Source of the DNA: Prorocentrum cordatum
Taxonomy: Eukaryota; Sar; Dinophyceae; Prorocentrales; Prorocentraceae
Assembly (NCBI GenBank): GCA_963575745.1
Contig: CAUYUJ010014172.1
Location: 893,501 to 957,500, forward strand
DNA: 64,000 nt
Direction of reading: 5' to 3'
Part shown: positions 1-15,896 of the stretch, piece by piece
Layout: every line of letters starts with the position of its first letter
Position numbering within the stretch: the first letter of the stretch is position 1
Notes under the pieces: generated by a model
Databases searched by the model: none
Told to the model about the DNA's origin: nothing
The model's input: the letters and a program-made list of their open reading frames with translations, nothing else
Translations under genes and position numbers: made by a program

Positions 1-3000
1 CAGGGAGCTCCGCAATACTGTCCATCAATATGTTTTGATATACTTTGGAGGTCCATTGATAGACGCCTGTAGTCGACTCCTCGATGGTCTCTGGGTCCAG
101 GTAATGTACCAACTTTTTGAAAAAGTGGTCTGCACTGCAAATTGGCAAGTCACGTGCCCATTTGTGGGTATGATCAAAATTCAAATGGTATGACTCTGCA
201 TTCCATGCTTTCGATCCAAATCGAATCTCAAATCGTAAGTGCGGTTGTGTTTTATCAGTTACAATTCTGTCCGCGCCACTGTGTATCTCGATGATTTGTT
301 TCATCTTTATCATAGGCGAATCCACCAACAACTCCGACGTCCAGCGATATATGCGGCGGTCATCTGACTGTTTAATCCACCTTGAATCCTCGTCTGGGTC
401 GTAGTCTGGGTGGTTGAGGAAGTCTGCTGGCGGGTCAATAACGTTGTCGAGTATGCTCGCGTCAACGTGCTCATATGCTTGGATTTCTGCTGAGAGATCT
501 GCTCTCATATTGTCGTTTGCTGCTTTTTTTTCATCAGCGGTGAGCGATATGTTCGATATACCCACGATAACGGTAACCAAAGGTTCATCAGATGAGCCTG
601 CAGTTTGTTGAGGTCTATCGCCCGTAGGAGCGGTGCCCCCAGCAGGTGTGGCCACCAGCTCTTCGGGGTCGGGTGTCCGAGGAGCGGGCCGTCTGGTCGG
701 TGTACGTGGAATGCGTGGTCTATAAATGCTCGGCATACCAAGATATGGTAGACTGCCATCATTTTTGTGCTGGAGTATTTTGTCACGGCATGAGGTCGGT
801 CCCTCCAGGACAGTTTCCATATATGTCGGGTCAATGGCATGTTCGTCGATGCGAATTGGCAATGCAAAGACAACGCCCTTGAGAGGCATGCTTTTGTCAT
901 TGTACCATATGTTTACCCATCGTAAACCGTAGTTGAAAATGGGTATCTGTACCGCGAAGAACTTGTCAAAGACGCCGAAATGAATGATTGGGCCATAGAT
1001 GTGCCCCTTGGCCAAGGGAATTTTAGTATTGTGATTGCCCTTGGGGTAGTGATTGTCATAATGAAAGCATTTGGTAGATCCCCAATTCTTAATGATAATG
1101 AAGTCCCCCATGCGAACATCATTAGATGCAGGGCGACGGTCCCAATCTTTTTGTGTAATATTTGATGTAATAGGTCGAAGAGCTTCTCGGCAGTATGACA
1201 AGGCAATGAACCACTCTTTATCATCTGCTTTGTGAGAGGTGTCCCGAATCATAGCACGGACTATTTGCTCATCCAAGGCATCGGCTGCAGATATACGGCT
1301 AACAGGGGTTGCCCCCAGCTGAGCAGAAGTTGCTGATGCTGACGTTGTACTTGGCTGCTCCATGTTCTGATCCGTGTCAGCAGGTGCAATCCCAGGAGGG
1401 TCGTCGATGAACTCTCCAGGGAGGTAGGCGCAAATCTCGTACTTGCTCAATGGCGGTCTCGCGGCCAATGGCGGGTAGTCCCATGGGGCGCCGTCTGGCC
1501 ATATCTGCTGGCCATGCATGTGATGTGGTTTGAGGCTGCGAATTGTAATAATTGCCGCAGCGGGAACCACGGCCTCTGTCATGATAGCTCCTTGAGCGCC
1601 CAGCCAAAACCTGCAACCTGCTTTTGTGGCGATCTCCATATTGATCACTAGCTCGACCTCGTTCTTGTAGTTATTGAACTTATATGACTCTACTGAGGTG
1701 TGGGGATTCTTCTGGACATTGTCTAAATACGCGCTGGAACTGAAGAATGCCTCCGAGCGCTGTGATGGTTTATGATGCTTGTCTCTCTGAGAAGATGGGT
1801 CGATGTAGCCTGGAATGATCCCTGTCTTCAAGATGTTGCGCCAAGCACGGGCTGCTGTGCCGTGGTGGAGGTATTTGACATCTGTCCATTGTAGGCTCTC
1901 CCATTCCATATTCCATGGTTTGGAAAGTGGGTTGACACAACTGCGACCGCCAACACATCGAATGGCAATGACGCTGTTCCAATCGAAACAGCTGGGGTCA
2001 CCTCCATCGGGGATTGGCTTGGCGTATATCTCAATTCTATGTTTCTGCGGATCAATATGTTTCTGGAACGCACGAATGATGAAGATCGGGTAGTAGTCAT
2101 TCCAATCGGCATATCCATCATGTGCACCATCTTTCTTGAAGTGTGACACTGCTGCGTCCATGGATGGTCCATTGTGCTTGTCTTTGCGATCTTTGAATTT
2201 CCATTGAACCATTTCCTGAAAGGGTTTCCAATTGCTTGGAATCTTCCACTCACGATTTGTTGTTCTCTCCCAAATGTTGATACGTCTATCGTGAAATTGA
2301 TTGATCCAAAACTTTTTGTAGTGAATCTCGTGGCGTAACATGGTCGTGATGTCTTTGCTCATGTATTTGTTTGTTCCCAGCCATTCATCTTCAATTAACT
2401 CGGGACCATAACGTACATCACCGTAATTTGGTAACGATATCCATTTCCATTCTGGAAAGCAACCAGACTGTGCGATATCAGGCGCGTGAGCAATCACACA
2501 ATCATCGTGCAACAGTTGATCGAACCAATCTTTGTTTTCCAGGCAGGCGAGTCCATTGGTCGCGCGTGTACCCCTCAATATTGGACATACGTACGGATGG
2601 TCATCCTTGATGCCTGCTTGCAGCTTCCACTCTCGAATAGTGCATGCGTTATCGAATATCCCGACCTGGCTGATGTCCTCGTACATGGAACGTTCACAGC
2701 TGTCCTGCCATGATAATAAATTCATCTCATGTGGAGACGATTCATCCTCGGCAGGAGTTGCCTCCAGCTCCATGGCCTCTAGGTCAGTGCCGTCGTCGGG
2801 GATCGGTACCGCCTCAGCCTTTGGGAGCTGATCTGCTGGCTGCTGGTCTGCTGTTGGTTCAGGAGTCGATGGTTGTGGCACTTTTATCGATTGCGGTCCA
2901 GGTTGCAGTGGATCAGGCAATGGACCTGGCGGGGCTGGCTGCGCCGTATCAGCTGCTGCCCGCCACACGGCTGTCGGAATATCGGGATCATGGCCCAATG

Positions 3001-4741
3001 CCACGCGATCTAGTGCATTCTGCCTGAAGAATGCGTTGTATGCTATGATGTTCTTCTCGTCCTCGGCAGCAGGGCCGATGCAGTGAGAAGTCAACCTGTT
3101 GTTTTCCGCAGTGAGTCGTGATTTGGTCGCATTATCATCTCCATCCAAGTCTTCAATCTGTTGTAAAAATTGCTCAAACACAACCCAAGTAACTGCATGT
3201 GCATCTTCAACCGTTTTGATGGTCTTGGGATGAAGGAGCTCTTGTTTCTCAACTGAATGCCAGGATGCCCAAGCCCCAGGGTAGTCATTGATCAACAGCA
3301 TGAGGTACTGGAACAAGTCGTCGTATGCCATGCCCCATGGATCATTTTCAGGGATAGCTTTGTCTGGCTCGCTAGGATCAGGTGCTGGTGTCCGTTTCGG
3401 CATTCCAAAAATAGGTTCCGTTGTGTCGTCTGCGTCAGCAGGCAGTGATGCCGACAACGTACCATCGGCACATGATGCCATCCACGCACAATGAGCCATT
3501 TCGCTTGCCGTCTGTGTCATCAACGTCGTGAGGCTGAGATCTCTTTTCCATTCGTTTGTCATCTTTTCTCTGAAATCGAGGGCTGCCATGATCTCTTTGG
3601 CCTGTGTGTAGGCCTGCTCATCCGTGACAGGAATCAGTAACGGCGCCCTGAATGGATATGGCTGAGAAGGCAGTGACTGGATCAAAGCGCAGAAGTTACG
3701 ATAACATACTGCGTCGCAGAACTGTGTTGTAAACATTGCCATGTTATGGTTGTTCTGTTTTGCGCGCCAAGCCTGCGGGGTAATCCTATCGCACGTCTCC
3801 ACCCAATGATCTGATGGAAGAACAGTGATACCACGATTCTGCATAATATTGATCAGGTCGCTCGCGTGGTGATCAAAGTTCGGATGTGCGCCCCATTGTG
3901 CTGCTTTGCCAGGCCCCATGACTGTGGGACAGCGAAAGTACTGCATCACGTCGACAAAACGTGATACGTCCACGTGTACGTGTACTGGCATGAGCGTCGG
4001 GACGCCGCCCTCACATTCCATTTTCTGGAGCTCGTATACGCCAGTGGGTGCACGATTCTGATGTCGACGCGTGTCCACGGTGTTCTGTCCGTGGTTGGCG
4101 CATGCGATGTCATTCGCGCTCCATGCCACCATAGCATTAAGGCCCCTGCAATAATGTCTTTGTTTCACATATGATGGGAAATCGTTGGCCCAGTAGGCCC
4201 AGATAGTCTCGTTTAACTCGCGCCACTTTTTGATGGAAGCATTGTCGCTGTGAAACATGAGGCATCTGGCTTCGCGGATCATCCTGATCATGTTGCGCTG
4301 CTCGAGAGTGCACCCATACTGGTTGTTGAGAATAGCTGTGGTACGGGTTTCTTGTGTCTCGAAACGCTGCTTACGTAGTTCCTCCATACCATAGCGGGTG
4401 TCTCCACCAGCCTCTGGCAATCGAACGCAATCTTGGCCGATCGGCGCGTCGTTCTGTCTGAACCATTCTTTATAATTGCCCAAGGAGAATGCCCGCATCA
4501 TGATGTCATCGCGGATAATGGTCGACAAATGCTCGAGAGTAGCGCCGCCCATGCATTCCGCGCGGTTGAGGCACGGCATAAATAGCGGTACGAGAGCAAC
4601 GTTTGATGCCTTGGCGAGTTCTTCTCGCTTCTGTGCAGTGTTGAGCTCGTCGATGCCGTAAGTTGGGTACTTCTTGTGTGTTGCACTCTTGGCCTTGTTC
4701 TTGGCCTGCATAATCCACGTTGAGTCGGTGTACAAGTTGGT
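1..4741 (-). CDS. Post-RNase H polyprotein extension of element A, with Tpt1/KptA-like domain (3' end off window)
   Basis: Reading every plus-strand triplet in phase from position 2 to 4741 gives no tta, cta or tca, so about 1,580 codons are open on the minus strand and continue past the window edge. It is in the same frame as the RNase H ORF, separated from it by the single TAG at 4742-4744. The translation is protein-like throughout, with mixed hydrophobic and charged segments and a proline-rich linker near 2,800-2,960. It shows no reverse transcriptase or integrase motif. A Tpt1/KptA-like segment lies at about 1,520-2,360. The remaining segments are unrecognised. These include a Trp-rich stretch near 4,150-4,250 and a C-terminal part with KWARDLPICSADHFFKKL near 100-190. 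Whether it is a retroelement protein (cleaved from Pol) or a captured host gene is not known. The open length itself is solid. Confidence 0.85.
1520..2360 (-). other. Tpt1/KptA-like RNA 2'-phosphotransferase domain inside the extension
   Basis: Tpt1/KptA enzymes remove a splice-junction or other RNA 2'-phosphate using NAD+, through an ADP-ribosylated intermediate. Four landmarks appear in the family order. MSKDITTMLRH (LRH at 2330-2338) matches the N-terminal LSxxLRH signature. IAIRCVGGRS (about 1,935) matches IRxxxGHS. YLHHGTAARAWRNILKTG (HHGT at 1856-1867) matches the YHGT..xxxxIxxxGL NAD-binding motif. GCRFWLGAQGAIMTE (about 1,574-1,616) matches GxxFYRSxNGVxLT. Of the four catalytic residues I know for the family (Arg-His in LRH, Arg in IRxxxGHS, Arg in FYRS), the first three are present and the last is replaced by Leu. 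The order of these motifs supports the call. Activity is uncertain because of that Leu, and because the usual RxHVH segment is replaced by a divergent one (AFFSSS). Confidence 0.7.
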
Positions 4742-7705
4742 CTATTTGTACGCGTGCCCTGATGGACCAAATGCATGATGCAATAGTAGTCCCAAGTCTT
4801 CTTGTATAAAGGAACACCACCCGTTATCTGAAAGTAGAGTAGAAACCAAACGACCACCACAGAAAGCGCTGTACTTTGCTTGGTCCAGCTCGAATGGGTC
4901 AACATCAGGGCCAGGGGTAAGACCAGGGTCGATCTGGCCGATCTGGTCAGCGGCTTCGCCGAAGAAGTCGTTGCCCTCGTTGTATGGTTGCCAACGATAG
5001 GTACTTGTCATATCCCCGTCATTATGTGATATTGCCACCCAGCCATCTGCATGATCGGATGGCGTTGCCACCGTCTTGGGGCATGATCCGATACCTCCAA
5101 AGCCTCCGCGCGCAGTCAGCCATGTAGCGAGCTTGCGGCGAAATTTGCTTGTTTGGTTAAAGTCGGAAAATGTTCTCATGTTGGTGACCAAATTATCCTC
5201 AACAATGTGGCCGATGTGTCCAGATGTATCCGATGTCCTGGCAACGCAAGGTGGGCGTGTAGGTAACTTGGCCGTTGTACGATCAAGTTTAGGAGCGTAA
5301 CATGGTGTTACCAATCCATTGCTGTATACATCGGATGGTGCACAAAGACCATTGTTATAATATATTTGTGTATCCTGAACGCTGTCCTCGGCATATTGTC
5401 CCAGTACTGCACTGCCAATCTTCGACCAATCGTTGTGAATCATCATCCACTCCGTTTTCAATATCATCGTCGTAAAGTTCTCTGGTGGGCACTTGCGGTG
5501 CGTTCCTGGGACCACCGCGTTCAAGTGATCATGTAAACCACGAACACTTTCTTGCACAGACGGATTACGATTGAACAGACTGGAAAGCATACACATAGCA
5601 CGCATGAATGATAGCCACGGTGTGGCTGTAAATGTACTGTAGTCATAGTTGGCGTCGCCGCCGACTGATCCTCTCGCGTCATGAATCCAACTCTTAGCGT
5701 CGGCGGACGCGGAGCGGGCCATTTCCCGAATAGAGGATTCGTCGGGCACGCGGAGATCGAACTCTCCACTACGATCAGCACGCCGTTGATGTATGTATAT
5801 GTAACCATCATCAGGATTACGAGGACGGCCAGTTTGAGCGTGATACGTGAAGCCCACGCGGTCGTCGTCCATGGCGTTCGGGTCGTACTCCGTGTCGTAG
5901 CCGATGGGCCAGCCGATGAGGTTGAGCGGCTGTGCCTGATCCATCTCGTGGATGGGGGCGTCGGGATTAGAACCGATCTCACTTATTTTCGCCTCGCAAG
6001 CGGCGAACAGGATGCCTGTGAGCTTTGTAGCTCGAGTCGTAAAATTGCTGCGGCATGAACGTATAAGCAATGTCCTAACTCTCTCTGGATCTTGTGGAGG
6101 CGAGGGAAAATGGCGGGGATGTCTACCGTGCGGGGAACGCGCGCGTGAACGAGGTGTGCGCGACGCAATAGATGCGGCTGGTACGCCAATGTGGTACATG
6201 CATGCGCACATTCCCTCGTGATTGGCTTGTCCAACGCATCGGAATCCACACTCTGATCCTACTTCGCCCCATCTTTCTTTTTCTGTAAGTAATATGTTGC
6301 ATACTTCCGGGCATCCATCCAGTTTTGGAGGTTCCGCAACATGAGGTAAACCATCGGGCCTCCGAGGCCCTCGCAGTGGTTTCCAGGGTTTCTTTGGAGG
6401 ACACTGTACCGGAGTAGCGGGAAATATGAGCGAGTGTCCCAAGAGATCCTTCCAAAGGTCTGCTTTCTCCGTCTCGAAATGTTTGGTCACCATATCTGCG
6501 ATCTGCTCCTTTGTACCTACGTGTTTGAGCTCGATATGTTCGAGTTGGCACGTCTCGCATATCCAATCCAGGTTGATACGATGAGCACGATGAAGATGAC
6601 GAAGTGCTGGAGTACGTCCTTTTTGGACAATTTTGATCACGGCCCGGTTATCCTCGAGGACGATAAGACGCACTTTGGGAGAACTAATCTCTTGAGTCGG
6701 TTCTGGATCCACGTGCAATACTGTACCCTCATGGGATATTGTACGTCTCTTTGGAGGCGTAGGTAGTTCCGTATTTAGCGGAAGTTGCCTACGGCTAGGA
6801 GAAGATCCCCGTGTAGGGGGTGCCTTGCGAGGCAATGATTCACGCTTCTTTTTGGCTGCCAATGTAGGACACATCGCCGGGTCGGCGCGTCGATGGCAGC
6901 TCAGGCATGCATTCTTATCTTTGCAAGTTTTGGCAACTCCCACCACGGCTTCCCAAAATGAGAGTAGTGGCAACCCTTCAAGTCGTAGTGCTGAGTCAAG
7001 AGCAACGATCTCGGATTCAGTAGATGAATGTGAGACAACCGTTTGTTTCTTACATACAGCGTTGACTGGAAAGAACGTGTTGGGTCCAACAAGCGCGGCA
7101 AAAACGCCGGTAGTGGATTTGGATGACGTAATGCAATCAGCGAACGAGGCGTCAGTAAAAAGCATGATGGATACCTTGTCTGACGAATCACCTATCCATC
7201 CGTGCAAGCAATGTGCGCGCGTCGTTTTGATGTAGCATATCAACCGATGTAGACGTTTATCACACGTAGTATTCCATTTGGTAATGTCTCTGGCCAACAT
7301 ACATACTGGATGTAGAAGATCGAAACGACAGCAACGTGCCAGGTACAGGATCTTCATTAGTACACTCGCCGCGTCCTGGCCAAGGATGCCCTCGTCGGAA
7401 CAGTCGGAATCAGTGAAGGAGGTGTCCTCGATGCCAGGGGTCTCGGCGCCAGGTAGGTCATCGTATGTGACGGGTATGGGATCTGTCGTGGTAGAGGTCG
7501 TGTCGGCCGATCTTGCTGGGCTGGATGATCGTGGCCGTGCGTTGAGCGCACTAGTAGGTCTGGCGACCGACCCGGAGGATGCGGGCGATTTGGATCGCGA
7601 AGTCCTCGGCGAGTCGGATCGTTTGCGACGTGACCCTGGTCCCTGGGCGCGCTTGGAGGCGCATTCCAAGTATCGTTCAATGCACTGATCGGTAAAACCA
7701 AGCAT
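4742..7705 (-). CDS. RNase H plus start of long C-terminal extension, element A
   Basis: The first ~430 codons are the end of RT and the copia RNase H, which degrades RNA in the RNA:DNA hybrid. MKILYLARCCRFDLLHP is the classic post-RT copia segment. FTDASFADC (first Asp), KSTTGVF, SSTESEIVALD (Glu and Asp) and LEDNRAVIKI (last Asp) follow in order, and LEHIELKHVGTKEQIADMVTK closes the domain. A linker of ~100 residues with a Cys/His-rich patch is inserted between SSTESE and LEDNRA. About 550 further residues follow RNase H. They include a possible zinc-binding patch, ECGFRCVGQANHEGMCACMYH (about 6,185-6,260), with no family I recognise. The ORF begins just after an in-frame TGA (7712-7714) and ends at TAG 4742-4744, beyond which the same frame stays open. 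Both stops look like substitutions in a once-continuous polyprotein. Confidence 0.85.
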   Translation of the reverse strand: MLGFTDQCIERYLECASKRAQGPGSRRKRSDSPRTSRSKSPASSGSVARPTSALNARPRSSSPARSADTTSTTTDPIPVTYDDLPGAETPGIEDTSFTDSDCSDEGILGQDAASVLMKILYLARCCRFDLLHPVCMLARDITKWNTTCDKRLHRLICYIKTTRAHCLHGWIGDSSDKVSIMLFTDASFADCITSSKSTTGVFAALVGPNTFFPVNAVCKKQTVVSHSSTESEIVALDSALRLEGLPLLSFWEAVVGVAKTCKDKNACLSCHRRADPAMCPTLAAKKKRESLPRKAPPTRGSSPSRRQLPLNTELPTPPKRRTISHEGTVLHVDPEPTQEISSPKVRLIVLEDNRAVIKIVQKGRTPALRHLHRAHRINLDWICETCQLEHIELKHVGTKEQIADMVTKHFETEKADLWKDLLGHSLIFPATPVQCPPKKPWKPLRGPRRPDGLPHVAEPPKLDGCPEVCNILLTEKERWGEVGSECGFRCVGQANHEGMCACMYHIGVPAASIASRTPRSRARSPHGRHPRHFPSPPQDPERVRTLLIRSCRSNFTTRATKLTGILFAACEAKISEIGSNPDAPIHEMDQAQPLNLIGWPIGYDTEYDPNAMDDDRVGFTYHAQTGRPRNPDDGYIYIHQRRADRSGEFDLRVPDESSIREMARSASADAKSWIHDARGSVGGDANYDYSTFTATPWLSFMRAMCMLSSLFNRNPSVQESVRGLHDHLNAVVPGTHRKCPPENFTTMILKTEWMMIHNDWSKIGSAVLGQYAEDSVQDTQIYYNNGLCAPSDVYSNGLVTPCYAPKLDRTTAKLPTRPPCVARTSDTSGHIGHIVEDNLVTNMRTFSDFNQTSKFRRKLATWLTARGGFGGIGSCPKTVATPSDHADGWVAISHNDGDMTSTYRWQPYNEGNDFFGEAADQIGQIDPGLTPGPDVDPFELDQAKYSAFCGGRLVSTLLSDNGWCSFIQEDLGLLLHHAFGPSGHAYK

Positions 7706-7711
7706 ATCATG

Positions 7712-8542
7712 TCAAATTCCACGAACCTCTTTAGCCGTATTGTAATCTTTTTCATTATGCACGGGCAACATAGGGCGTATGGTAGACATTCTTTTGTCGA
7801 AGATAGTCTGCGGTACATCATATGCTTGTTGTCCACAACCCAGATATTGTGAGTATGGAGTAGGTGGATCCAAGTCAATACCGCTTTTGCGAATATAATC
7901 CCAGCCAGACTGTAGATTGTGAGCTGGGCCGGCTAATTTAAAGTCGTCCACGTATGCTGAAAGTATCAGTCCCAGTTCGTTGTGTCTCCATACACACTCC
8001 CATCCTGAAATAGGCTCGAAACCAACGCTTTCTAAGCATGTACGGCATTTTCGTTCCCAAAAGACACCTGCGAGAGGGTGTCCGTATAGTGCCAATCGTA
8101 ATCGGCACACTGGATTCTTGTATTTTGACCATGATGTCGGTTGTCGCCATTTAGGTATGGTAATCCAAGTGTCGACTGGATCGATTCGTCCGTCGCTGTA
8201 TAATAATGCCTGCGTGTAGGCTCCTGGTGCGTCACTTTGCTCTCCCGCATATTGTGGCAATAGCGCAGTAGCATCGCAAAGTTTGGAAGCCTCAATATGC
8301 GATGCGCTGGAAGCGGCGTCGGCGAATATGGCGGCCAAACCAGTTTCATCTTTGCCTGCATTGCCCTGAACCACCACTCTGCCCTTGAATTTACGTAGAT
8401 CAGGTGGAAGTTCTTCGTGTTTGACTGAAGATAGCTCTAAGATATTGAAGAAATGAACTTTCGTCCCAGCGCGGATAGCTTGTGACTCAATATCAGCTTT
8501 TTCTGCAACAGTCTCCAACATCCACGTTTGTTTATTGTCCAA
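7712..8542 (-). CDS. Reverse transcriptase core of element A
   Basis: The central RT palm is present: GRVVVQGNAGKDETG, then DAPGAYTQALL (position of the copia DVxxAFLxG motif), LRLALYGHPLAGVFWE, and AYVDDFKLAGP with the catalytic YVDD at about 7,950. The phrasing is that of the dinoflagellate copia lineage. It is bounded by in-frame TAA 8552-8554 upstream and TGA 7712-7714 downstream, both in the frame of its neighbours, so it is the middle piece of one Pol polyprotein and not a separate gene. The upstream TAA falls in a segment reading RKxYERLDNKQTW, where a Glu or Gln codon would be expected. All visible RT motifs are intact. Confidence 0.88.
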   Translation of the reverse strand: MDNKQTWMLETVAEKADIESQAIRAGTKVHFFNILELSSVKHEELPPDLRKFKGRVVVQGNAGKDETGLAAIFADAASSASHIEASKLCDATALLPQYAGEQSDAPGAYTQALLYSDGRIDPVDTWITIPKWRQPTSWSKYKNPVCRLRLALYGHPLAGVFWERKCRTCLESVGFEPISGWECVWRHNELGLILSAYVDDFKLAGPAHNLQSGWDYIRKSGIDLDPPTPYSQYLGCGQQAYDVPQTIFDKRMSTIRPMLPVHNEKDYNTAKEVRGI

Positions 8543-8551
8543 TCTCTCGTA

Positions 8552-11500
8552 TTATTTCCGTAGGGCTTCTTGTGCACGTGGTTCTGCGGCGACTTCTTTC
8601 TTACTCAGGCTTCTGGTAACTAGTGCCGGCCGTGACCATGAGGAATGAGGTATTTTATCCCTGTGTGCCGGCGTGTAGGTGGTCTCACGTGGCATAGTTG
8701 GTATTACTACCGACTGGGTGAACTGGCGTATGAGCGGGTTCATGGTCCCAAAGTCGGTTCCTTCACTATCCACAAGTACCAAAGCACGTTCTTCTCCATC
8801 ATGCTGTTGTGGTAACTGGCGGTAGTACAGTACCGTAGTAATGTCACGTGGCCCACCAGGTAATTTGGCATACAGTATTTCTTTGTTTGTCACGCCTTTG
8901 ACGTTTTCGTCGCGGATGACGTCGCCATTGTCAGTGTCGTATGTAATTCGTCGTTCCACAGTATTCCATGTGGGTCCGCCGGATGTAGTGGCACGGAAAT
9001 TGTTGACCTGTTTGTCCTGTCTTGTCCACACTCTTAGCGCAGCTCGGTCACGAATTTCACGAGCCCGTTTAACGTCGTTGGCGTACTCGATTTCCTTCTT
9101 TTGCTGTCCACGGGAGAGTGTTTTCCAATGCTCGGGAAGAATGTGATCAGGGCGTGTAGTAGTCTGCATACGGGTCTCGCGTCCACGAACCACCATTTTG
9201 CCGTCTGGCGTCATTTTGGGAAGCTCATAGAATTGAATCGTGCCTGTCCACGGCTCACTTAACTCCCTGCGGTCGTTGGCGCTAACACCATCCCAAACAT
9301 CTCGAAAGTCACTTTCTCCCTCAAAAGTAGAAGTTGTTTTGAAATCTCGTGTCACATCGAGTTGGTCAACAGGTACAGGTATGTTCATGACGTCGTCCGT
9401 CGGGATGAACAGTTTCTTTCGTGGAGTACGAATATGTCTGATGACGCAATATCCACGCTGTTCCCAGTAGTCGGGCTCCGGCGCTGGTGCAGCAACTTCA
9501 GAGGCCGATGTTTGGATATCAGCGGCGTTGTCCTCTGTTGTCATCATAGATGGGTCATCCCATTCTTTAGGGTAGGAAAGTGGAGGATCGGGCATTGGTT
9601 TGTCACCCAAAGGGCGAGATGTGGATTCCTTGACCTCATCGTGTGCCTCAAAGTTATGATGTCGTAGAGTGCCTTCTTTCACTGGGTAGGTGAACTTGCC
9701 ATCCGGGATGATGATGTCTTTGACTCTGTGTACATGACATAGTTCACCATCAGGGTTCTTGGCGTATGTAGCCGTGTCCAAGACAAGGTAGTCACCTGAC
9801 CATCGTCCACCAGAGTGTAAGTGGTAACCCATGAATAACCCTTCCCGAGCATTTTCTTTAAACTTTGCAGTCTCATTGTTAATCTCGGGGTTGAGGCATT
9901 TCCAAAAGATCCGAGCACCGAATGGCATGCAGTGCCCGGGAAAACTTTCGCCAAATCGTATTTCATGAGCTGTCTTATCTGCGTGCTCATCATTGAGGGC
10001 AGCCACGCCCGTGGATGTATGCACAAAATTGTGTCCACAGCAAAAGGCTTGCATGGCTTCTTTCCACCATTCGTGTCCCAGACCAGACATATGTAACACA
10101 GCTCTCGCACCGAGAATGACAGTGTTGACGACGCGCTCGATCAATCCATTCGTTTGCGGACGATGTGGCGCACTCGTGTCGTGTCTCCATCCCAGTTGGC
10201 GGCAAGCTTTCTGAAGCTCTCCAGAACTGTCTGTATAGATATGCTTCACCTCATCGTTCGCGGCGATGAACTGTTGAAAGGATGCCTTTGTGGTAGCTGC
10301 GTCTTTGTGTAGTGCCGGGTAGGCCATGAAGATGCCGGTATATCTGTCGAGGACAACAAGTGCATACTTGTCGCCGTGTTTGTCCGCGGCATCGTCTTTG
10401 GCCAACACGATATGGTCGGCAGTTAAAGCCTCACCAAACTTCTTCGGGACAAAAGCCTCGTAGGCGTTATCCTCGTCGGTGGGGTCTGCCGGTGGATGTG
10501 GCTTGTGCTGTCGTCTACATGGGGCATTCTGCGCCATCGTACGAGAACAGATCTCACAGTCAGGGTGTTTTGGGCTGTGAGTCATGTAATGCATCGGGTC
10601 GATCGGTTTCTTCTGTCTGTTGGGGAGAACTCGATCATTGTCGCGATGCGCTCGTGTGGACGTCTCTGTCGGTACGTCATTATCTGCTTGAGCTATATCT
10701 ACTAGCCCCCCGCATTGTGGAGGAGAACACTGCGTCTGAGACGTAGGCGAGTCGGTGGGTGTGTCCACGTTAGGCTCGTCTGTGCCTGTGTCGGGAGGTT
10801 CTTCGACCGTGGTGGTCCGTGCGCCTCCTCCCTCTCCGACATGTGGTCTCTTGGGGCAGGTCCCTATGTGGGGCCGTAGCTCGTCTGCAGTGGTTGACTG
10901 CTCTGTAGTTTTGCAGCACCAACAAATGTCGTTGCAGCGGGCGGATGATCGCTTGCGCTGACGACGTCGGGGCGCTGACGAAGTGCATAAACGTGGTGGT
11001 GGTATCAGTGTCAAGTCGTCGAGTCGTAACTCTGGAACTCGATTGTTGACTGGAATATTATACCATTGGCCCCCCGGATCCTGAAGCAAGTAGCCCAGCT
11101 CAGGATCCCAAAGCTGCCGAAAGCCATCAACCCCGATCAATTTCCCAACTGATAGTAAAGATGGACAGTCTGGCAAGGCAAGGGCCGAGCTGTGTAAGCC
11201 AACCTCGGGTAGCCGTATGTCGTAGTGCTCGTTGACAGTACGATCACCATTGGCGGTTTCCAGAATATGCTCTTCGCGAATAGATATGCGATCCGATTCG
11301 GTATGCGTTAGTTCGTGTTTTCCTTGAATATGATGAGCAGAACCACTGTCAAGAACCCAAGACCGTGTCAATGCAGCAGTCGAACGTGGAGGGTCGACTT
11401 GCTTTGTCGTTGTCTTCGTCTGGGCTGTCTTTGATGACTGCTTAACAGTGTCGTCATATTTTCGGATCGCAGTAGGTGTGGCCACCGACTCTTTGTTGTG

Positions 11501-12628
11501 TCGGTAGTCATGTAGGTCGCCGTACCATATTTGTGCCTCTTTTTGACATTCTCGTAAGGCATCCGCACTTTGATCCCACCATCGTTGTGGTAACGGGTCT
11601 GGTACATTGACGATGCCACCCTCGTTCGGCATCTCTTTCCATTTATCCAATCTGGCCCTGCCAGATACGGTCTGTAAATAGTATTCCACGTTACGTATGT
11701 CGAAGCGTATCCGACGACGTGTTTTGGTAGATGTCGCTGTGGCCTTAGTGTTGGCCATGAGGGTCTTGTCACGTATGACGCAACTGCGGTCCGAACGGCG
11801 TGAACGTCGAAAGTTGGCAGGAGAACGTGCTCTGGCGTGGGGTGAGCCACGGGACGAACCATGGCTCGGGGAACGTCTGCCACGTCCTTTGTCACTACCA
11901 TATGATCTATCACGGCCGCGTGGACTGCCGCGTCCGCCGCCACGATTGTCTCGCCCTCGGGAAGGTAGATCTCGAAGATCTGTCGTACCGACTTCTCGAT
12001 TGACTGCGAGAGTCTGGGGACCTCCTAGATGTTGAACAAGATCGGTCGTATTGGCGTCGGTTGTCACGTCCATGTCGCGGGTCGCTTGCATAGCGAAACC
12101 CCCCGCGTTGTGAAGACCGTTGGCTTCCTGATCCGCGGGATGGTGATCGGCCACGGCTATCCTGGCTGGAGGTCCGTGGTCGACTCGGGCTTCGCTCAGG
12201 AGTCTTTGCACCAGGTGCAAGATGAGCGTATTTGAATTTGTCGCCTTTTGTGCACTTGTTCTGTGCGAAATCTTTACACTGTGCGACGTGCGGAAAGTTA
12301 CACTTATCACCTCTGGCACATGTGTTGCGCTTGGCGAAATCGAAGCAAAATGGTTTCGATGCGGGCTTCTTGTGATTCGCAGGAGTGGACATACTACGGC
12401 GGGGGTTGCCACCAGCCGTTGATGGTCTGGAAGATATGTTGTTCTTCCAATCCCTGGAATATGTATGCAAAGCCTTGCACCGCTCACCATTGCGACAATT
12501 GCCTTTCTTCCAGGCAGCGCACACGTTGACTTGAGATCGTGTCTCATGTTCGTACCGTAACTTGTTTTGATTCTTCTCCAATTGTTTAAGCTCCAGTATG
12601 TCCAGGACACGCTGTCGAAGCCAACCAC
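8552..12628 (-). CDS. Protease-integrase-RT N-terminus of element A (Pol)
   Basis: Real Pol sequence begins near 12.0 kb. The part before that is the Gag region read out of frame. The order is a copia aspartic protease, WVLDSGSAHHIQ (about 11,350), then the integrase zinc-binding region MTHSPKHPDCEICSR (about 10,560). The catalytic core follows with Asp in LTADHIV (about 10,415), Asp in IYTDSSGE (about 10,230) and Glu in NGLIERV (about 10,140). Next come the CMPFGARIFWK integrase C-terminal region and the RT N-terminus. Only about 30 residues separate the last Asp and Glu, shorter than the usual 35. Pol lies in the +1 frame relative to Gag (11910-13073), with the shift somewhere between about 12,230 and 11,913 in an Arg/Ser-rich segment. 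It could be programmed or a mutation. It stops at TAA 8552-8554, after which RT continues in frame. Confidence 0.87.
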   Translation of the reverse strand: MVGFDSVSWTYWSLNNWRRIKTSYGTNMRHDLKSTCALPGRKAIVAMVSGARLCIHIPGIGRTTYLPDHQRLVATPAVVCPLLRITRSPHRNHFASISPSATHVPEVISVTFRTSHSVKISHRTSAQKATNSNTLILHLVQRLLSEARVDHGPPARIAVADHHPADQEANGLHNAGGFAMQATRDMDVTTDANTTDLVQHLGGPQTLAVNREVGTTDLRDLPSRGRDNRGGGRGSPRGRDRSYGSDKGRGRRSPSHGSSRGSPHARARSPANFRRSRRSDRSCVIRDKTLMANTKATATSTKTRRRIRFDIRNVEYYLQTVSGRARLDKWKEMPNEGGIVNVPDPLPQRWWDQSADALRECQKEAQIWYGDLHDYRHNKESVATPTAIRKYDDTVKQSSKTAQTKTTTKQVDPPRSTAALTRSWVLDSGSAHHIQGKHELTHTESDRISIREEHILETANGDRTVNEHYDIRLPEVGLHSSALALPDCPSLLSVGKLIGVDGFRQLWDPELGYLLQDPGGQWYNIPVNNRVPELRLDDLTLIPPPRLCTSSAPRRRQRKRSSARCNDICWCCKTTEQSTTADELRPHIGTCPKRPHVGEGGGARTTTVEEPPDTGTDEPNVDTPTDSPTSQTQCSPPQCGGLVDIAQADNDVPTETSTRAHRDNDRVLPNRQKKPIDPMHYMTHSPKHPDCEICSRTMAQNAPCRRQHKPHPPADPTDEDNAYEAFVPKKFGEALTADHIVLAKDDAADKHGDKYALVVLDRYTGIFMAYPALHKDAATTKASFQQFIAANDEVKHIYTDSSGELQKACRQLGWRHDTSAPHRPQTNGLIERVVNTVILGARAVLHMSGLGHEWWKEAMQAFCCGHNFVHTSTGVAALNDEHADKTAHEIRFGESFPGHCMPFGARIFWKCLNPEINNETAKFKENAREGLFMGYHLHSGGRWSGDYLVLDTATYAKNPDGELCHVHRVKDIIIPDGKFTYPVKEGTLRHHNFEAHDEVKESTSRPLGDKPMPDPPLSYPKEWDDPSMMTTEDNAADIQTSASEVAAPAPEPDYWEQRGYCVIRHIRTPRKKLFIPTDDVMNIPVPVDQLDVTRDFKTTSTFEGESDFRDVWDGVSANDRRELSEPWTGTIQFYELPKMTPDGKMVVRGRETRMQTTTRPDHILPEHWKTLSRGQQKKEIEYANDVKRAREIRDRAALRVWTRQDKQVNNFRATTSGGPTWNTVERRITYDTDNGDVIRDENVKGVTNKEILYAKLPGGPRDITTVLYYRQLPQQHDGEERALVLVDSEGTDFGTMNPLIRQFTQSVVIPTMPRETTYTPAHRDKIPHSSWSRPALVTRSLSKKEVAAEPRAQEALRK

Positions 12629-13073
12629 AGGTACGATTCGGGTCGCTCATCTTCATGCGCTGGTACTCGTACATGTCTTGGTTCATCCATACATGTCTAC
12701 GAATCTGTGTACGAAATAGCGATTCCAAGATCTTTGGATCGGGTGCTTCTCGGCATTCCAAGAGTAAAGCGTCCCAGTCAGTAATAAAACGTTGCAAATC
12801 GTCATCTCTCATCCTCAGTTCTTTAAGGCGCTCGAAATCGTGCAGGTCGTCGTCAACCTCTGTCACCTTGTAGGACTGTAGGATGTGCCAGTAGATCTGG
12901 CGTCCTTTGAGCATGCGTCCTGCTTTGTGCTCTTTAGTTTCGATGAGCCTGATTTGGTAGCGTAAGTCCGAGGATAAGATGTCGCTCAGAGCGGTAGCGA
13001 GTTTGCAATCGATGCTCTCAAAGTCTCCACTGTCTTGTAAGTCCTCGAATGTACATTCGGGCTGTTCAGCCAC
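11910..13073 (-). CDS. Gag of element A with CCCH zinc fingers
   Basis: A nucleocapsid-like Gag. An alpha-helical UBN2/retrotrans_gag-like region (residues ~20-170, with YWHILQSYKV and DFERLKELRMRDDDL) is followed by three CCCH-type fingers and an RS-rich basic tail. Finger 1 (residues 185-203) is CX7CX5CX3H. Finger 2 (243-262) is CX8CX5CX3H. Finger 3 (266-284) has the same spacing but Phe in place of the third Cys. Copia Gags normally carry a CCHC knuckle, and none is visible here. CCCH fingers usually bind RNA, so genomic RNA binding is inferred. The frame is open further upstream only after TGA 13143-13145, with coding-like sequence on both sides (KIAQLLE then QQKVRKNFGAA). The ORF ends in the RS tail, and Pol continues in the +1 frame. 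Confidence 0.82.
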   Translation of the reverse strand: MAEQPECTFEDLQDSGDFESIDCKLATALSDILSSDLRYQIRLIETKEHKAGRMLKGRQIYWHILQSYKVTEVDDDLHDFERLKELRMRDDDLQRFITDWDALLLECREAPDPKILESLFRTQIRRHVWMNQDMYEYQRMKMSDPNRTCGWLRQRVLDILELKQLEKNQNKLRYEHETRSQVNVCAAWKKGNCRNGERCKALHTYSRDWKNNISSRPSTAGGNPRRSMSTPANHKKPASKPFCFDFAKRNTCARGDKCNFPHVAQCKDFAQNKCTKGDKFKYAHLAPGAKTPERSPSRPRTSSQDSRGRSPSRGSGSQRSSQRGGFRYASDPRHGRDNRRQYDRSCSTSRRSPDSRSQSRSRYDRSSRSTFPRARQSWRRTRQSTRP

Positions 13074-13274
13074 GCATAGGAAGGCGTATGCTTTGGATGG
13101 TCGCCCTGAGGCGGCCCCAAAGTTCTTCCGTACTTTTTGCTGTCACTCGAGCAGTTGCGCGATCTTAGGCAAGACAGGGACTCGGACGGTGTCTGACTCC
13201 TTGATAGGAGTTGTAGTATGGACCGACACCGCAGACAATGGTTGCGAGGGTATCGGTGCGCCGTGGGTAGTTGG

Positions 13275-13898
13275 TTATGTGCGCACAGGAGACACGTGGC
13301 GTGTCTGTGCAGAAGCTGCCGCGGAGGCTGCTCCTGGTGACGTACGTCTTTGTTGTCCTGCAGAAGCTTGTGGTGCTTCGGCGGACGCTGCCGTCGGCCT
13401 GTGCAGGTCGGCTGCAGGTCGAAGGTGGAGGTTGGTGTCGTTGGTGTGGTCGATCAGCTGATTCGTCCAGCTCGTCGTATCTTCGTGTATTTGACCCACC
13501 TTTTGGCGTGTATACTCATCAGTATCCCGAGAACGTTGTGAATACCGATCAAGTCGTTGCTCGCATGCTCGGAGACGGGCGCTTTGTGCCTCCAGCTCGC
13601 TTTCCAGACGTGCGAGGTGACTCTCTACACGTACCTTCTCAGTATCTCTTTCATGAATAACCTGGGAGAGCTCCAACTGCGTGTGGTCCGCCGCCTTCTG
13701 AACCTCCTGCAACCCGTCAGTGAGGCGGGCGAAATCGTAAACCGTGGGAGGAGAATCCAGCTGATCAGTCTGGGCTCGTCCGACACGCAACTCTGCCAGG
13801 GCGTCCTGTACACCAGGGAAACGCTGCTCGATGTCAGAGATCCGGTTAGCGAGTGGCTGCACGACAGCGTTGGTCGCATCAAGCCTTTGAGTGCTCAC
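13275..13898 (-). CDS. Gag coiled-coil middle segment of element A
   Basis: About 207 codons in exactly the frame of the flanking Gag segments. They are separated by TAA 13902-13904 upstream and TAA 13275-13277 downstream. A further 43 codons then run to TGA 13143-13145 and on to the CCCH Gag. The sequence is heptad-like and strongly helical (QVIHERDTEKVRVESHLARL; ESELEAQSARLRACEQRLDR), followed by an Ala/Pro/Thr-rich linker. This suggests a self-assembling coiled coil in Gag, which is inferred from composition. The stops look like point substitutions, because codon quality is the same on both sides. Confidence 0.65.
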   Translation of the reverse strand: MSTQRLDATNAVVQPLANRISDIEQRFPGVQDALAELRVGRAQTDQLDSPPTVYDFARLTDGLQEVQKAADHTQLELSQVIHERDTEKVRVESHLARLESELEAQSARLRACEQRLDRYSQRSRDTDEYTRQKVGQIHEDTTSWTNQLIDHTNDTNLHLRPAADLHRPTAASAEAPQASAGQQRRTSPGAASAAASAQTRHVSPVRT

Positions 13899-13901
13899 TC
13901 T

Positions 13902-15311
13902 TTAAGTATGCTGCAACATGTCGATCAGGTTCGACGAGTTGGCGTGTGCTTCGTTGCGAAGCGTCGCCGCAGTGTGGTCTAGATAAGATCGAAGATCATT
14001 GATCTGAGACTGAACGTCGACAAGGTCGGTGGCCTCGGCTGGTGTTGGTCGGTTGCGGAGCTGGTCGTGAATTTCATCATGTAAAATCCTGACTGCTGAA
14101 ACGCCTGTGTCGCGTACGAGCACAAGCTGTTGCTCCATCTGCGCGAGGTAGTTGCGCAGGTTCTCGACCATCGCCGTTCGTTCACCTGAGTGCGACACCT
14201 CACGATCAACCTGGTACTGCAGTTCTCCTATGATGCGTCGATCTTCGGCGATCCTGGAATCAATGACCCCTAAGGCGCCGTCAAGATCGCGGCGTATGGC
14301 TGCAGTATCGGCGGCGTTCGTCTGAACGCTCTGCTGTAGTCCAGAGTATTGCCTGGACACGAAGGTTTCAACCTGGTCTCTGAGCTCAGCTATTTCACCT
14401 GCGGCGGACGTTTCCGCCAGCTGGTCGTCTGAGATGGAGAGGTGGGGAGCGTCAGCTTCCCTGTGTCCCCTGTCGCGGGGAGTGCATGGCCTCTGAGAGG
14501 CAGCGCGCGGGCTCGACCTACTCTCGCCGCATGGGCCTGGGGCTCCACGGCGGTTGCGCGCGGACGAGCTGCGACTCGGACCATGTGTGTGTGGTGTCTC
14601 ATCCGATGATACCTCGGGGTGCTGCGTCTGCGGCTGCGCCGCCACTGGTCTACTGAGTTCCTCGAAGGTGGCTACGTGCTCCGCCACGGGGGCGGTCGCA
14701 GGGCTGGGGGTGCCAGCACCTGAGGTCCATCGGCGGTTAGCGCGAAAGCGCCCTGGAGTATCGTGACCGGCGAAGCTTTCGCCTGACGAAGTTGGGATTG
14801 CCCCCGACGGGGAAGGGGATGGAGGATCGAAGGTAGGCGTGTGGAACTCCTTCCTTCCTGTTCCTACTCCTTCTCCTGCCCCCCCGCGGGCGGCGCTGCG
14901 GTGAAGCTCAGCAGCTAGTCGCGCCTCGGGTCCGTCGGAGCTGGGGGGGGGGGGGGGGGGTATCTGGAACACCAACACAGTCCGCACTAAGGCTCTCCAA
15001 CTCGTCACCGAGCCGTCGCGCCGTGGGAGAGCTCGGACGCGAGGCCTCGATGGATCCCTTGCGGCGCATGCGCCGCAGGGGCTCCATCGAGGACCGCGTG
15101 CGAGGTCACAACGGGCGGGTCGGTGAAGGTGAGCTTTAAAGGGCTGATAACCTGTGTATGGGGTTGAAGTACAAGGGCGCAGAACCCCTGATCCGTTGGT
15201 AGAGAGAAGGAGGGATAGATGGATGTCTTTCCCTCCTGCACGATCAAAGGTCTGATCGATCTGTCTCAATACCTGAGCCCAAACGGCCAGGCGCAGGAGA
15301 GGTGAGGACAA
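13902..15311 (-). CDS. Gag N-terminal coiled-coil ORF of element A
   Basis: The open frame is up to 470 codons. The first ~200 residues are low-complexity, Pro/Arg/Ser-rich, and may be untranslated leader. They contain an 18-base G run (14943-14960) that reads as polyproline and is a likely slippage site. The last ~200 residues are a clear helical coiled coil (IAELRDQVETFVSRQYSGLQ; RNYLAQMEQQLVLVRDTGV). The true start is unclear. The frame continues into the next Gag piece apart from TAA 13902-13904. No LTR or primer site could be recognised upstream of it. Confidence 0.5.
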   Translation of the reverse strand: MSSPLLRLAVWAQVLRQIDQTFDRAGGKDIHLSLLLSTNGSGVLRPCTSTPYTGYQPFKAHLHRPARCDLARGPRWSPCGACAARDPSRPRVRALPRRDGSVTSWRALVRTVLVFQIPPPPPPSSDGPEARLAAELHRSAARGGAGEGVGTGRKEFHTPTFDPPSPSPSGAIPTSSGESFAGHDTPGRFRANRRWTSGAGTPSPATAPVAEHVATFEELSRPVAAQPQTQHPEVSSDETPHTHGPSRSSSARNRRGAPGPCGESRSSPRAASQRPCTPRDRGHREADAPHLSISDDQLAETSAAGEIAELRDQVETFVSRQYSGLQQSVQTNAADTAAIRRDLDGALGVIDSRIAEDRRIIGELQYQVDREVSHSGERTAMVENLRNYLAQMEQQLVLVRDTGVSAVRILHDEIHDQLRNRPTPAEATDLVDVQSQINDLRSYLDHTAATLRNEAHANSSNLIDMLQHT

Positions 15312-15896
15312 GGAGTATATATGAGGGTATTACACGGGTTCTATTCACATGAACCGCAGAGACCCTGACCCGCACTTCGGGGGGGCGAGAAGGACGGGGC
15401 CCCTCCTTGAGAAGAGCGACCTCCATAGCAAGCAGCAGCGGTCCTGGACCTTCTCGGGCAACGGCGTCAGCCAGATTGACCGTCGACGGAAGGAAAGCTT
15501 AACTTACTTGACAGAAACACTGGCAAGCTGGACCGCGATATCACTCGCCAACATGCGGCTGGCATTCAGTCCTAGGGCGGCCACCTCCGAGTTCCCAACG
15601 AGACTGGGATGGGAGCCCAGAACACGACAAGGCCCCTCTTTCAGCAAAGAGCCTTCACGCGGGCCCAAAGGTCACGGCGAGGCTGGACTTCGGCCGAGGA
15701 AGCCGCAAGGGCCCTAGAAGCACCCCAGGCCACACAGGCAGAGTCAGCATGTTATCACATCGAAGAGCTCTGGGGGGCCTGCTCTAAAAACTTAACCAGT
15801 AACCGCGATTACCACTCTGCGTGCCAAGGATGGCTCTCCAACAACAAACATCAGGCTCGCCGCAACAAACGTGCTAGGTAACCGGCCAAAGCTGTT
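15312..15896. other. No gene seen; probable 5' untranslated/LTR zone of element A
   Basis: Only short overlapping open frames without recognisable motifs. A TATATA-like stretch occurs near 15,315-15,322. The other LTR is outside the window, so no LTR boundary can be drawn. Confidence 0.4.

Follow-up and report, generated by a model that had tools for sequence, protein, structure and literature searches.

The role of Tpt1 in bacteria has been called a longstanding conundrum (PMC6333775). In viruses, KptA has been reported from a baculovirus (PMC3230848) and from the polyproteins of positive-strand RNA viruses, where it has been proposed to clean RNA ends carrying cyclic phosphates (PMC9503650). 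Named accessory domains of long terminal repeat (LTR) retrotransposons are described as few (chromodomain, DnaQ-like exonuclease; PMC6338049). Here we describe a Tpt1/KptA-like domain in W, a copia-type LTR retrotransposon of ~17.95 kb on the minus strand, most of one copy of which lies inside a window of 64,000 bases (the whole stretch of DNA analysed, contig C13323 893501-957500) from the dinoflagellate Prorocentrum cordatum, and a clearer Tpt1 domain in E1, a second family of the same genome. The genome, given as ~4.15 Gbp (PMC10449503), was searched as a 4.13-Gb assembly. In both families the domain lies inside LTR-bounded elements, is present in the copies examined and is under purifying selection.

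A Tpt1/KptA-like domain in W

A first-pass annotation of the window had placed a Tpt1/KptA-like domain inside a copia polyprotein, C-terminal to RNase H, and the profile match and the motifs, which are in place, confirm that observation. The family landmarks lie where that annotation put them, in the minus frame 2-4741 (MSKDITTMLRH, 2330-2362; IRCVGGRS, 1940-1963; HHGT, 1856-1867; FWLGAQGAIMTE, 1574-1609), although the third reads HHGT and not YHGT. When the translated frame was compared with Pfam-A, PF01885 (PTS_2-RNA) was the sole family matched up to E 10, at E 1.7e-4 and 22.1 bits, under the curated cut-off of 26 bits for this profile of 177 positions. A 350-amino acid piece taken alone (window 1412-2461, the basis of all W residue numbers below) scored 26.5 bits (E 7.5e-6), barely above the cut-off, and W in longer frames fell under it (22.1 and 22.6 bits). 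We rejected the window copy by itself as proof of a Tpt1 domain; its score is marginal, and sibling copies were therefore brought in. PF01885 matches all 13 W copies examined, with a best E of 9.2e-8, so that two checks suggested with the annotation, a profile search against Tpt1/PTS_2-RNA and a survey of sibling elements (116 copies listed, each of the 13 tested giving a Pfam match), came out in its favour.

A third suggested check, comparison of structures, agrees with Tpt1, but the W model that resembles Tpt1 structures was made from an alignment with 30 Tpt1s, and the agreement is biased by them. A single-sequence fold of W, with a predicted local distance difference test (pLDDT) value of 30, was not used. 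By sequence (phmmer, hmmsearch), W has no match in the PDB up to E 10. Neither W nor E1 gave a match in a protein database, though a P. cordatum protein is in that database, and IMG/VR scans found no relative.

Organization of the W element

The two LTRs of W (C13323 890895-891092 and 908652-908849) are 198 bp long and 97.475% identical, begin with TG and finish with CA, and a 5-bp target duplication, GTTCA, borders the element at both ends. The parts recognized in the window are as follows.

1..15349, minus strand: the part of W in the window, bounded by the LTR pair and target-site duplication (TSD), with the 3' end beyond base 1 at about 890895 of C13323
15153..15349, minus strand: 5' LTR, TGTGAATAG...ATACACA, followed by the GTTCA target duplication at 15350-15354
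15141..15152, minus strand: putative primer-binding site (PBS) GGTTATCAGCCC, 11/12 complementary to the anticodon arm of the host initiator tRNA-Met
12288..12542, minus strand: CCCH zinc fingers, a candidate for the gag/nucleocapsid side (PF18345 E 3.8e-8; PF00642 E 5e-7)
10157..10384, minus strand: integrase core (rve; PF00665 E 6.4e-6, 26.8 bits, cut-off of 32.6 not reached)
7835..8392, minus strand: copia-type reverse transcriptase (RVT_2; PF07727 E 5.7e-7, 29.8 bits, cut-off of 31.6 not reached), with YVDD at 7928-7954
6476..7162, minus strand: what we take to be a copia RNase H, from the motifs TDASFAD...SSTESE...EDNRAV...HVGTKEQIADMVTK
1574..2362, minus strand: Tpt1/KptA-like domain (PF01885 26.5 bits; 13/13 copies match)
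Within it, minus strand: key residues R43 (2333-2335), H44 (2330-2332), R168 (1958-1960), HGT (1856-1864) and K266 (1664-1666)
2..1411, minus strand: unannotated C-terminal extension of the polyprotein, an open frame of ~470 codons in the window and ~580 beyond base 1

The order from 5' to 3' is thus LTR, putative primer site, CCCH fingers, integrase, reverse transcriptase and RNase H, then, after a long region, the Tpt1-like domain with the C-terminal extension behind it, and W is of Ty1/copia type as judged by its integrase, reverse transcriptase and RNase H succession, the RNase H being placed by motifs only. The CCCH fingers sit in a different frame from the polyprotein (segment 11913-13073). 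Pfam gave no match at E <= 1 for RNase H in the RNase H segment (frame 4745-7711), nor for an aspartic protease in the window segments scanned. Stops interrupt the coding region of the window copy at 8552 (TAA), 7712 (TGA) and 4742 (TAG). The frame had been described as uninterrupted from RNase H onward; this does not hold for the window copy, since the RNase H motifs (7162-6476) are in the next segment upstream (4745-7711), but a sibling runs through this region with no stop. In that sibling, C1598, 9000 bases (3000 codons) without N or stop carry rve, RVT_2, the RNase H segment and PTS_2-RNA in one frame.

A purine run, GGGACGGGGGG, with one C, abuts the 3' LTR of W (C13323 about 891093-891103) and is a possible polypurine tract; at the corresponding site before the 3' LTR, E1 has a pyrimidine-rich stretch instead.

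E1, a second family with a Tpt1 domain

A search of the genome with PF01885 gave 154 matches, of which some are listed; 150 of 2877 candidates were scored. Seven matches at the head of the list (L001-L007) differ in kind from E1; the rest of those listed have scores of 71.3-91.5 bits, and 13 of them are in frames of 2926-2943 codons. Our E1 sample consists of three whole elements (C1962, C310, C11336), two partial ones with N runs (C19443, C13489) and 12 further domain cut-outs, and from score and frame we infer that the remaining high-scoring matches are E1 as well. The three whole elements are 15.96-15.97 kb long, with LTRs 98.4-99.0% identical and TSDs of AGGTG, CAGCT and CCCGA.

In C1962, the first open reading frame (ORF1, 2941 amino acids, gag-side) has a CCHC zinc knuckle at about residue 640, slightly below cut-off, and the Tpt1 domain at residues 1563-1798, where PF01885 scores 85.3 bits over profile positions 4-177 of 177. 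ORF2 encodes RVT_2 (E 2.5e-8) and a stretch that we take to be integrase-like from a motif, with no Pfam match to it. A RING finger (PF17123, PF13639) is found at about residue 2330 of E1 ORF1 (L010 3-3926, plus strand), in the same frame as the Tpt1 domain and the zinc knuckle, and is followed by what is presumably a protease-like motif. The Tpt1 domain is thus placed differently in the two families: in E1 the zinc knuckle precedes it and the RING/protease region follows, and in W it comes after RNase H.

By sequence comparison the E1 Tpt1 is far clearer than that of W. It is 23-36% identical to natural Tpt1s, and sequence searches match it to human and mouse TRPT1 (7yw3, human, E 7.4e-11; 7yw2, E 3.1e-9). 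The E1 domain may derive from the host Tpt1 gene, but long branches obscure such a link. The W and E1 domains lack direct similarity (BLAST E 1.0; E1 profile on W, 0.3 bits).

Two further observations concern these families and the PF01885 matches. A block of 91 amino acids is common to W (window about 8801-9037, minus strand, between integrase and reverse transcriptase) and to residues 164-254 of E1 ORF2, where it is located ahead of the integrase-like stretch; the two versions are 33% identical (E 1e-8), that of E1 weakly resembles DUF5956, and we read the block as a moved accessory domain. Among the seven matches of the other kind, a P. cordatum frame at L005 1114-2061 (minus strand) joins Tpt1 (133 bits) to a histone hairpin-binding SLBP RNA-binding domain (28 bits). 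L006 and L007 are 99% and 93% identical to L005 DNA across most of the locus, the SLBP scan having covered L005 only.

Copies and selection

The 350-amino acid W query gave 116 listed genome matches of 87-100% identity (116 scored of 1636 first-look candidates), a sibling set gathered with the domain as query, so that siblings lacking the domain are outside its reach. All are full length except one ending at residue 348, and 16 of the 116 have an internal stop. A 22-base pattern for the junction of LTR and PBS, CCCATACACAGGTTATNNNCCC (three free bases), has 517 matches in the genome, against 0 for the reversed pattern; for 16 of 100 listed junctions, a domain from the list of 116 follows downstream on the same strand at a distance of 12.5-13.0 kb, the remaining listed junctions being uninformative on domain presence because most domains were unscored. 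The open frames listed for W copies reach 5671 codons in three cases and 5669 in one, freedom from N having been checked for 3000 codons of one 5671-codon copy. Since N runs can inflate listed frames, as seen in L011 and L015, we rely on N-free stretches (C11336 and the stretch in C1598).

The W domain is under purifying selection: for the 78 pairs among 13 domains, the sum of dN (nonsynonymous divergence) divided by that of dS (synonymous divergence) is 0.132, with a median dS of 0.344, and the pairs are not independent because the copies share descent. Between the window copy and C1598, the ratio (omega) comes to 0.06 for integrase, 0.07 for reverse transcriptase, 0.08 for the interval between these two and 0.09 for the Tpt1 piece; it is 0.20 for the RNase H segment and 0.16 for the spacer, both upstream of Tpt1. 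This contrast along the element comes from a single pair, in which dS climbs from 0.34 to 0.71. On these figures, the Tpt1-like domain is about as constrained as the reverse transcriptase and integrase. The summed ratio for the E1 domain is 0.146 (78 pairs). A deep E1 copy, L038, has dS of 1.3-2.4 and omega of 0.08-0.15, and stops directly after the domain, and in one E1 pair omega is 0.14 over most of Tpt1 and 0.28 in the following window, which includes the Tpt1 end.

Catalytic residues and possible role

The essential tetrad of CthTpt1 is reported to be Arg18, His19, Arg68 and Arg121; the fourth of these, described as essential in bacterial and fungal Tpt1, contacts the phosphates of nicotinamide adenine dinucleotide (NAD) and the 3'-phosphate of the junction (PMC6333775). 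R43, H44 and R168 are invariant in the 13 W copies, and CRH and RASQGHSW are present in all 13 E1 copies; neither family has the full Arg-His-Arg-Arg tetrad of an active Tpt1, the first three residues being kept in both. The first-pass annotation had read the last catalytic Arg, in FYRS, as Leu. We reject FYRS as the catalytic Arg site: the fourth tetrad Arg aligns with SGMR, where W has an invariant Lys (13/13), and the Leu at FYRS is another position. The roles put forward with that annotation, namely repair or marking of element RNA, help with RNA processing related to trans-splicing, and countering of host ADP-ribosylation, are speculative. Because of the altered fourth residue, the domains of W and E1 are classed as Tpt1-like and not as proven Tpt1 enzymes, and the change argues against a plain copy of the tRNA-splicing reaction. 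The pattern of residues suggests that the splice-junction reaction was weakened or redirected while Arg-His-Arg recognition of RNA ends was kept.

We favour, with about even confidence, the reading that W and E1 are copia-type families with their own Tpt1/KptA-like ADP-ribosyltransferase-fold domain, which acts NAD-dependently on RNA ends in replication. The selection on the domain suggests that the elements need RNA-end processing or marking while copying. The domain would accompany the virus-like particle or the replication complex and work there on RNA ends, where it might use NAD+ to strip phosphates, 2' or terminal, from the element's RNA or from its tRNA primer or, in an alternative chemistry, place an ADP-ribose mark on 5' phosphates; nicked or uncapped RNA could then be primed, retained and copied. 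Phosphate removal would follow cleavage by metal-independent nucleases, as has been proposed for the KptA of RNA viruses (PMC9503650). ADP-ribose caps have been reported to shield RNA from XRN1 yet block translation (PMC9458441), and capping of this kind could conceivably switch an RNA over from being translated to being packaged. More tentatively, and with somewhat less than even confidence, we propose that a Tpt1-type NAD+-dependent RNA-end enzyme was recruited twice, in E1 on the gag side and in W behind RNase H, for use in cis to clean or ADP-ribosyl-cap RNA or primer ends; that the captures were independent is suggested by the differing polyprotein positions and by the lack of direct similarity between the two domains.

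Several results weigh against this reading. The fourth tetrad Arg is replaced in every copy, by the Lys already mentioned in W and, among the 13 E1 copies, by Asp (11 copies) or Gly (the other 2). Tpt1 proteins combine an N-terminal winged-helix RNA lobe with a C-terminal NAD lobe; the PF01885 alignment to W spans only positions 67-176 of 177, and the N-lobe of W is backed only by a motif, LRH, whose RH is invariant in 13/13 copies, and by a low-confidence model (low pLDDT). A profile of natural Tpt1s scores W at 3.1 bits, the best of 1000 shuffles reaching 6.8; adding E1 to that profile raises W to a weak 6.1 bits against 5.1 for the best shuffle, and a profile of E1 only gives the 0.3 bits noted above against 6.0. 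Furthermore, priming of E1 uses an ordinary tRNA 3' end, which makes a primer-repair role unnecessary there, and the constraint on the domain may reflect RNA binding instead of catalysis.

This last point is developed in an explanation that we consider unlikely, in which the domain is a non-catalytic RNA-end-binding module, its winged-helix RNA lobe and Arg-His-Arg residues serving packaging, dimerisation or template handling without NAD. The loss of the fourth tetrad Arg from both W and E1 would fit such a module, as would the presence in both families of further zinc fingers of RNA-binding type (CCHC in E1; CCCH in W, in another frame).

A host-directed activity, by which the domain would ADP-ribosylate or de-mark host factors or RNA and so let the element escape silencing or decay, seems to us rather less probable again. 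The capture of DNA methyltransferases (DNMTs) by DIRS and LINE elements of Symbiodinium is a precedent (PMC5890265), and the E1 RING finger could act on host ubiquitin pathways, but human TRPT1 has been reported to be inactive on protein substrates (PMC9458441), and fusion to gag/pol, in place of a free protein, fits a role in cis.

Another explanation applies to W only: an initiator tRNA cut in its anticodon arm would prime W, and Tpt1 would remove the blocking phosphate at the cut end. The site GGTTATCAGCCC after the 5' LTR has a single mismatch to the anticodon arm of the initiator tRNA-Met (11/12), priming of copia by a half-tRNA has been described in Drosophila (PMC5371799), and fungal FunCo1 Copia elements are reported to have an internal-tRNA PBS (PMC5445492); because of these two cases, a tRNA-fragment primer is possible for W. 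The mismatch is, however, the rule: of the 517 junctions 100 are listed, and among these 92 have the CAG form, 8 another form and none the fully complementary GAG. E1, moreover, carries Tpt1 yet has an ordinary 3'-end PBS. Five initiator tRNA-Met genes of the host were viewed (8 pattern matches, one contig); two end in GCTCCGCTA and three in GTTCCGCTA; against the CCA-ended tRNA 3' end, the E1 PBS TGGTAGCGGAGC pairs at 12/12 for 2/5 genes, and at 11/12 with one G-U pair for 3/5. We regard repair of a W primer as quite improbable. Chance resemblance, or a neutral passenger domain, has the marginal score of the single window copy in its favour but is very improbable given PF01885 in 13/13 copies, dN/dS of about 0.1 and the unmistakable Tpt1 in E1.

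As an observation on the tRNA genes themselves, the eight exact matches to the initiator pattern all lie along contig C19152 (L051-L055) and nowhere else exactly, and on this contig tRNA genes are clustered (Met, Ser, Thr, Leu, Ala or Val, and one called SeC).

Significance and comparison with known systems

A selected RNA-repair/ADP-ribosyltransferase-fold domain in two families, of which one has hundreds of insertions and the other more than 100 domain copies listed, would demonstrate that the chemistry of RNA ends can limit retrotransposition. It would also tie the KptA of RNA-virus polyproteins to retroelements, and would offer a natural system for studying Tpt1 function beyond tRNA splicing of the fungal type. 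We did not find an RNA-repair step in retrotransposition described in the literature searched. A retrotransposon bearing Tpt1, KptA or TRPT1 was likewise absent from the titles and abstract openings searched, a scope outside which preprints and most subscription papers fall, and the word "retrotranspos" does not appear in the KptA survey (PMC9503650).

Compared with Tpt1/KptA/TRPT1 proteins (PF01885), the domains of W and E1 have the Arg-His pair, IRxxxGHS, HGT and the C-terminal FW/FCWxxxxGxxxT/S in the same order; unlike those proteins, they are fused into retrotransposon polyproteins, contain long insertions and have the fourth tetrad Arg replaced. With Ty1/copia (Pseudoviridae-type) elements, both families share LTRs, 5-bp TSDs, an RVT_2-type reverse transcriptase and an integrase (in E1 an integrase-like stretch) ahead of it, but they are very large (16-18 kb), with an accessory Tpt1, a RING finger in E1 and, in W, a frame of up to 5671 codons as listed.

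The KptA of positive-strand RNA viruses (Beihai picorna-like virus and the Botrylloides leachii nidovirus) is similarly described as part of a replication polyprotein, in a replicon that uses an RNA template (PMC9503650), although those viruses use an RNA polymerase whereas W and E1 are LTR retrotransposons with a reverse transcriptase and many genomic copies. A BFVD search placed the Botrylloides leachii nidovirus polyprotein at rank 5 (E 1.1e-4), with low template modelling (TM) scores. SymbioDIRS-Dnmt3 and SymbioLINE-Dnmt of Symbiodinium are, like W and E1, dinoflagellate retrotransposons with a captured nucleic-acid-modifying enzyme, but the enzyme is a methyltransferase and the elements are of DIRS and LINE type, Copia elements of Symbiodinium being reported without a DNMT domain (PMC5890265). 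The nearest precedents for W and E1 are the KptA of positive-strand RNA virus polyproteins and the methyltransferases of dinoflagellate DIRS and LINE elements (PMC5890265).

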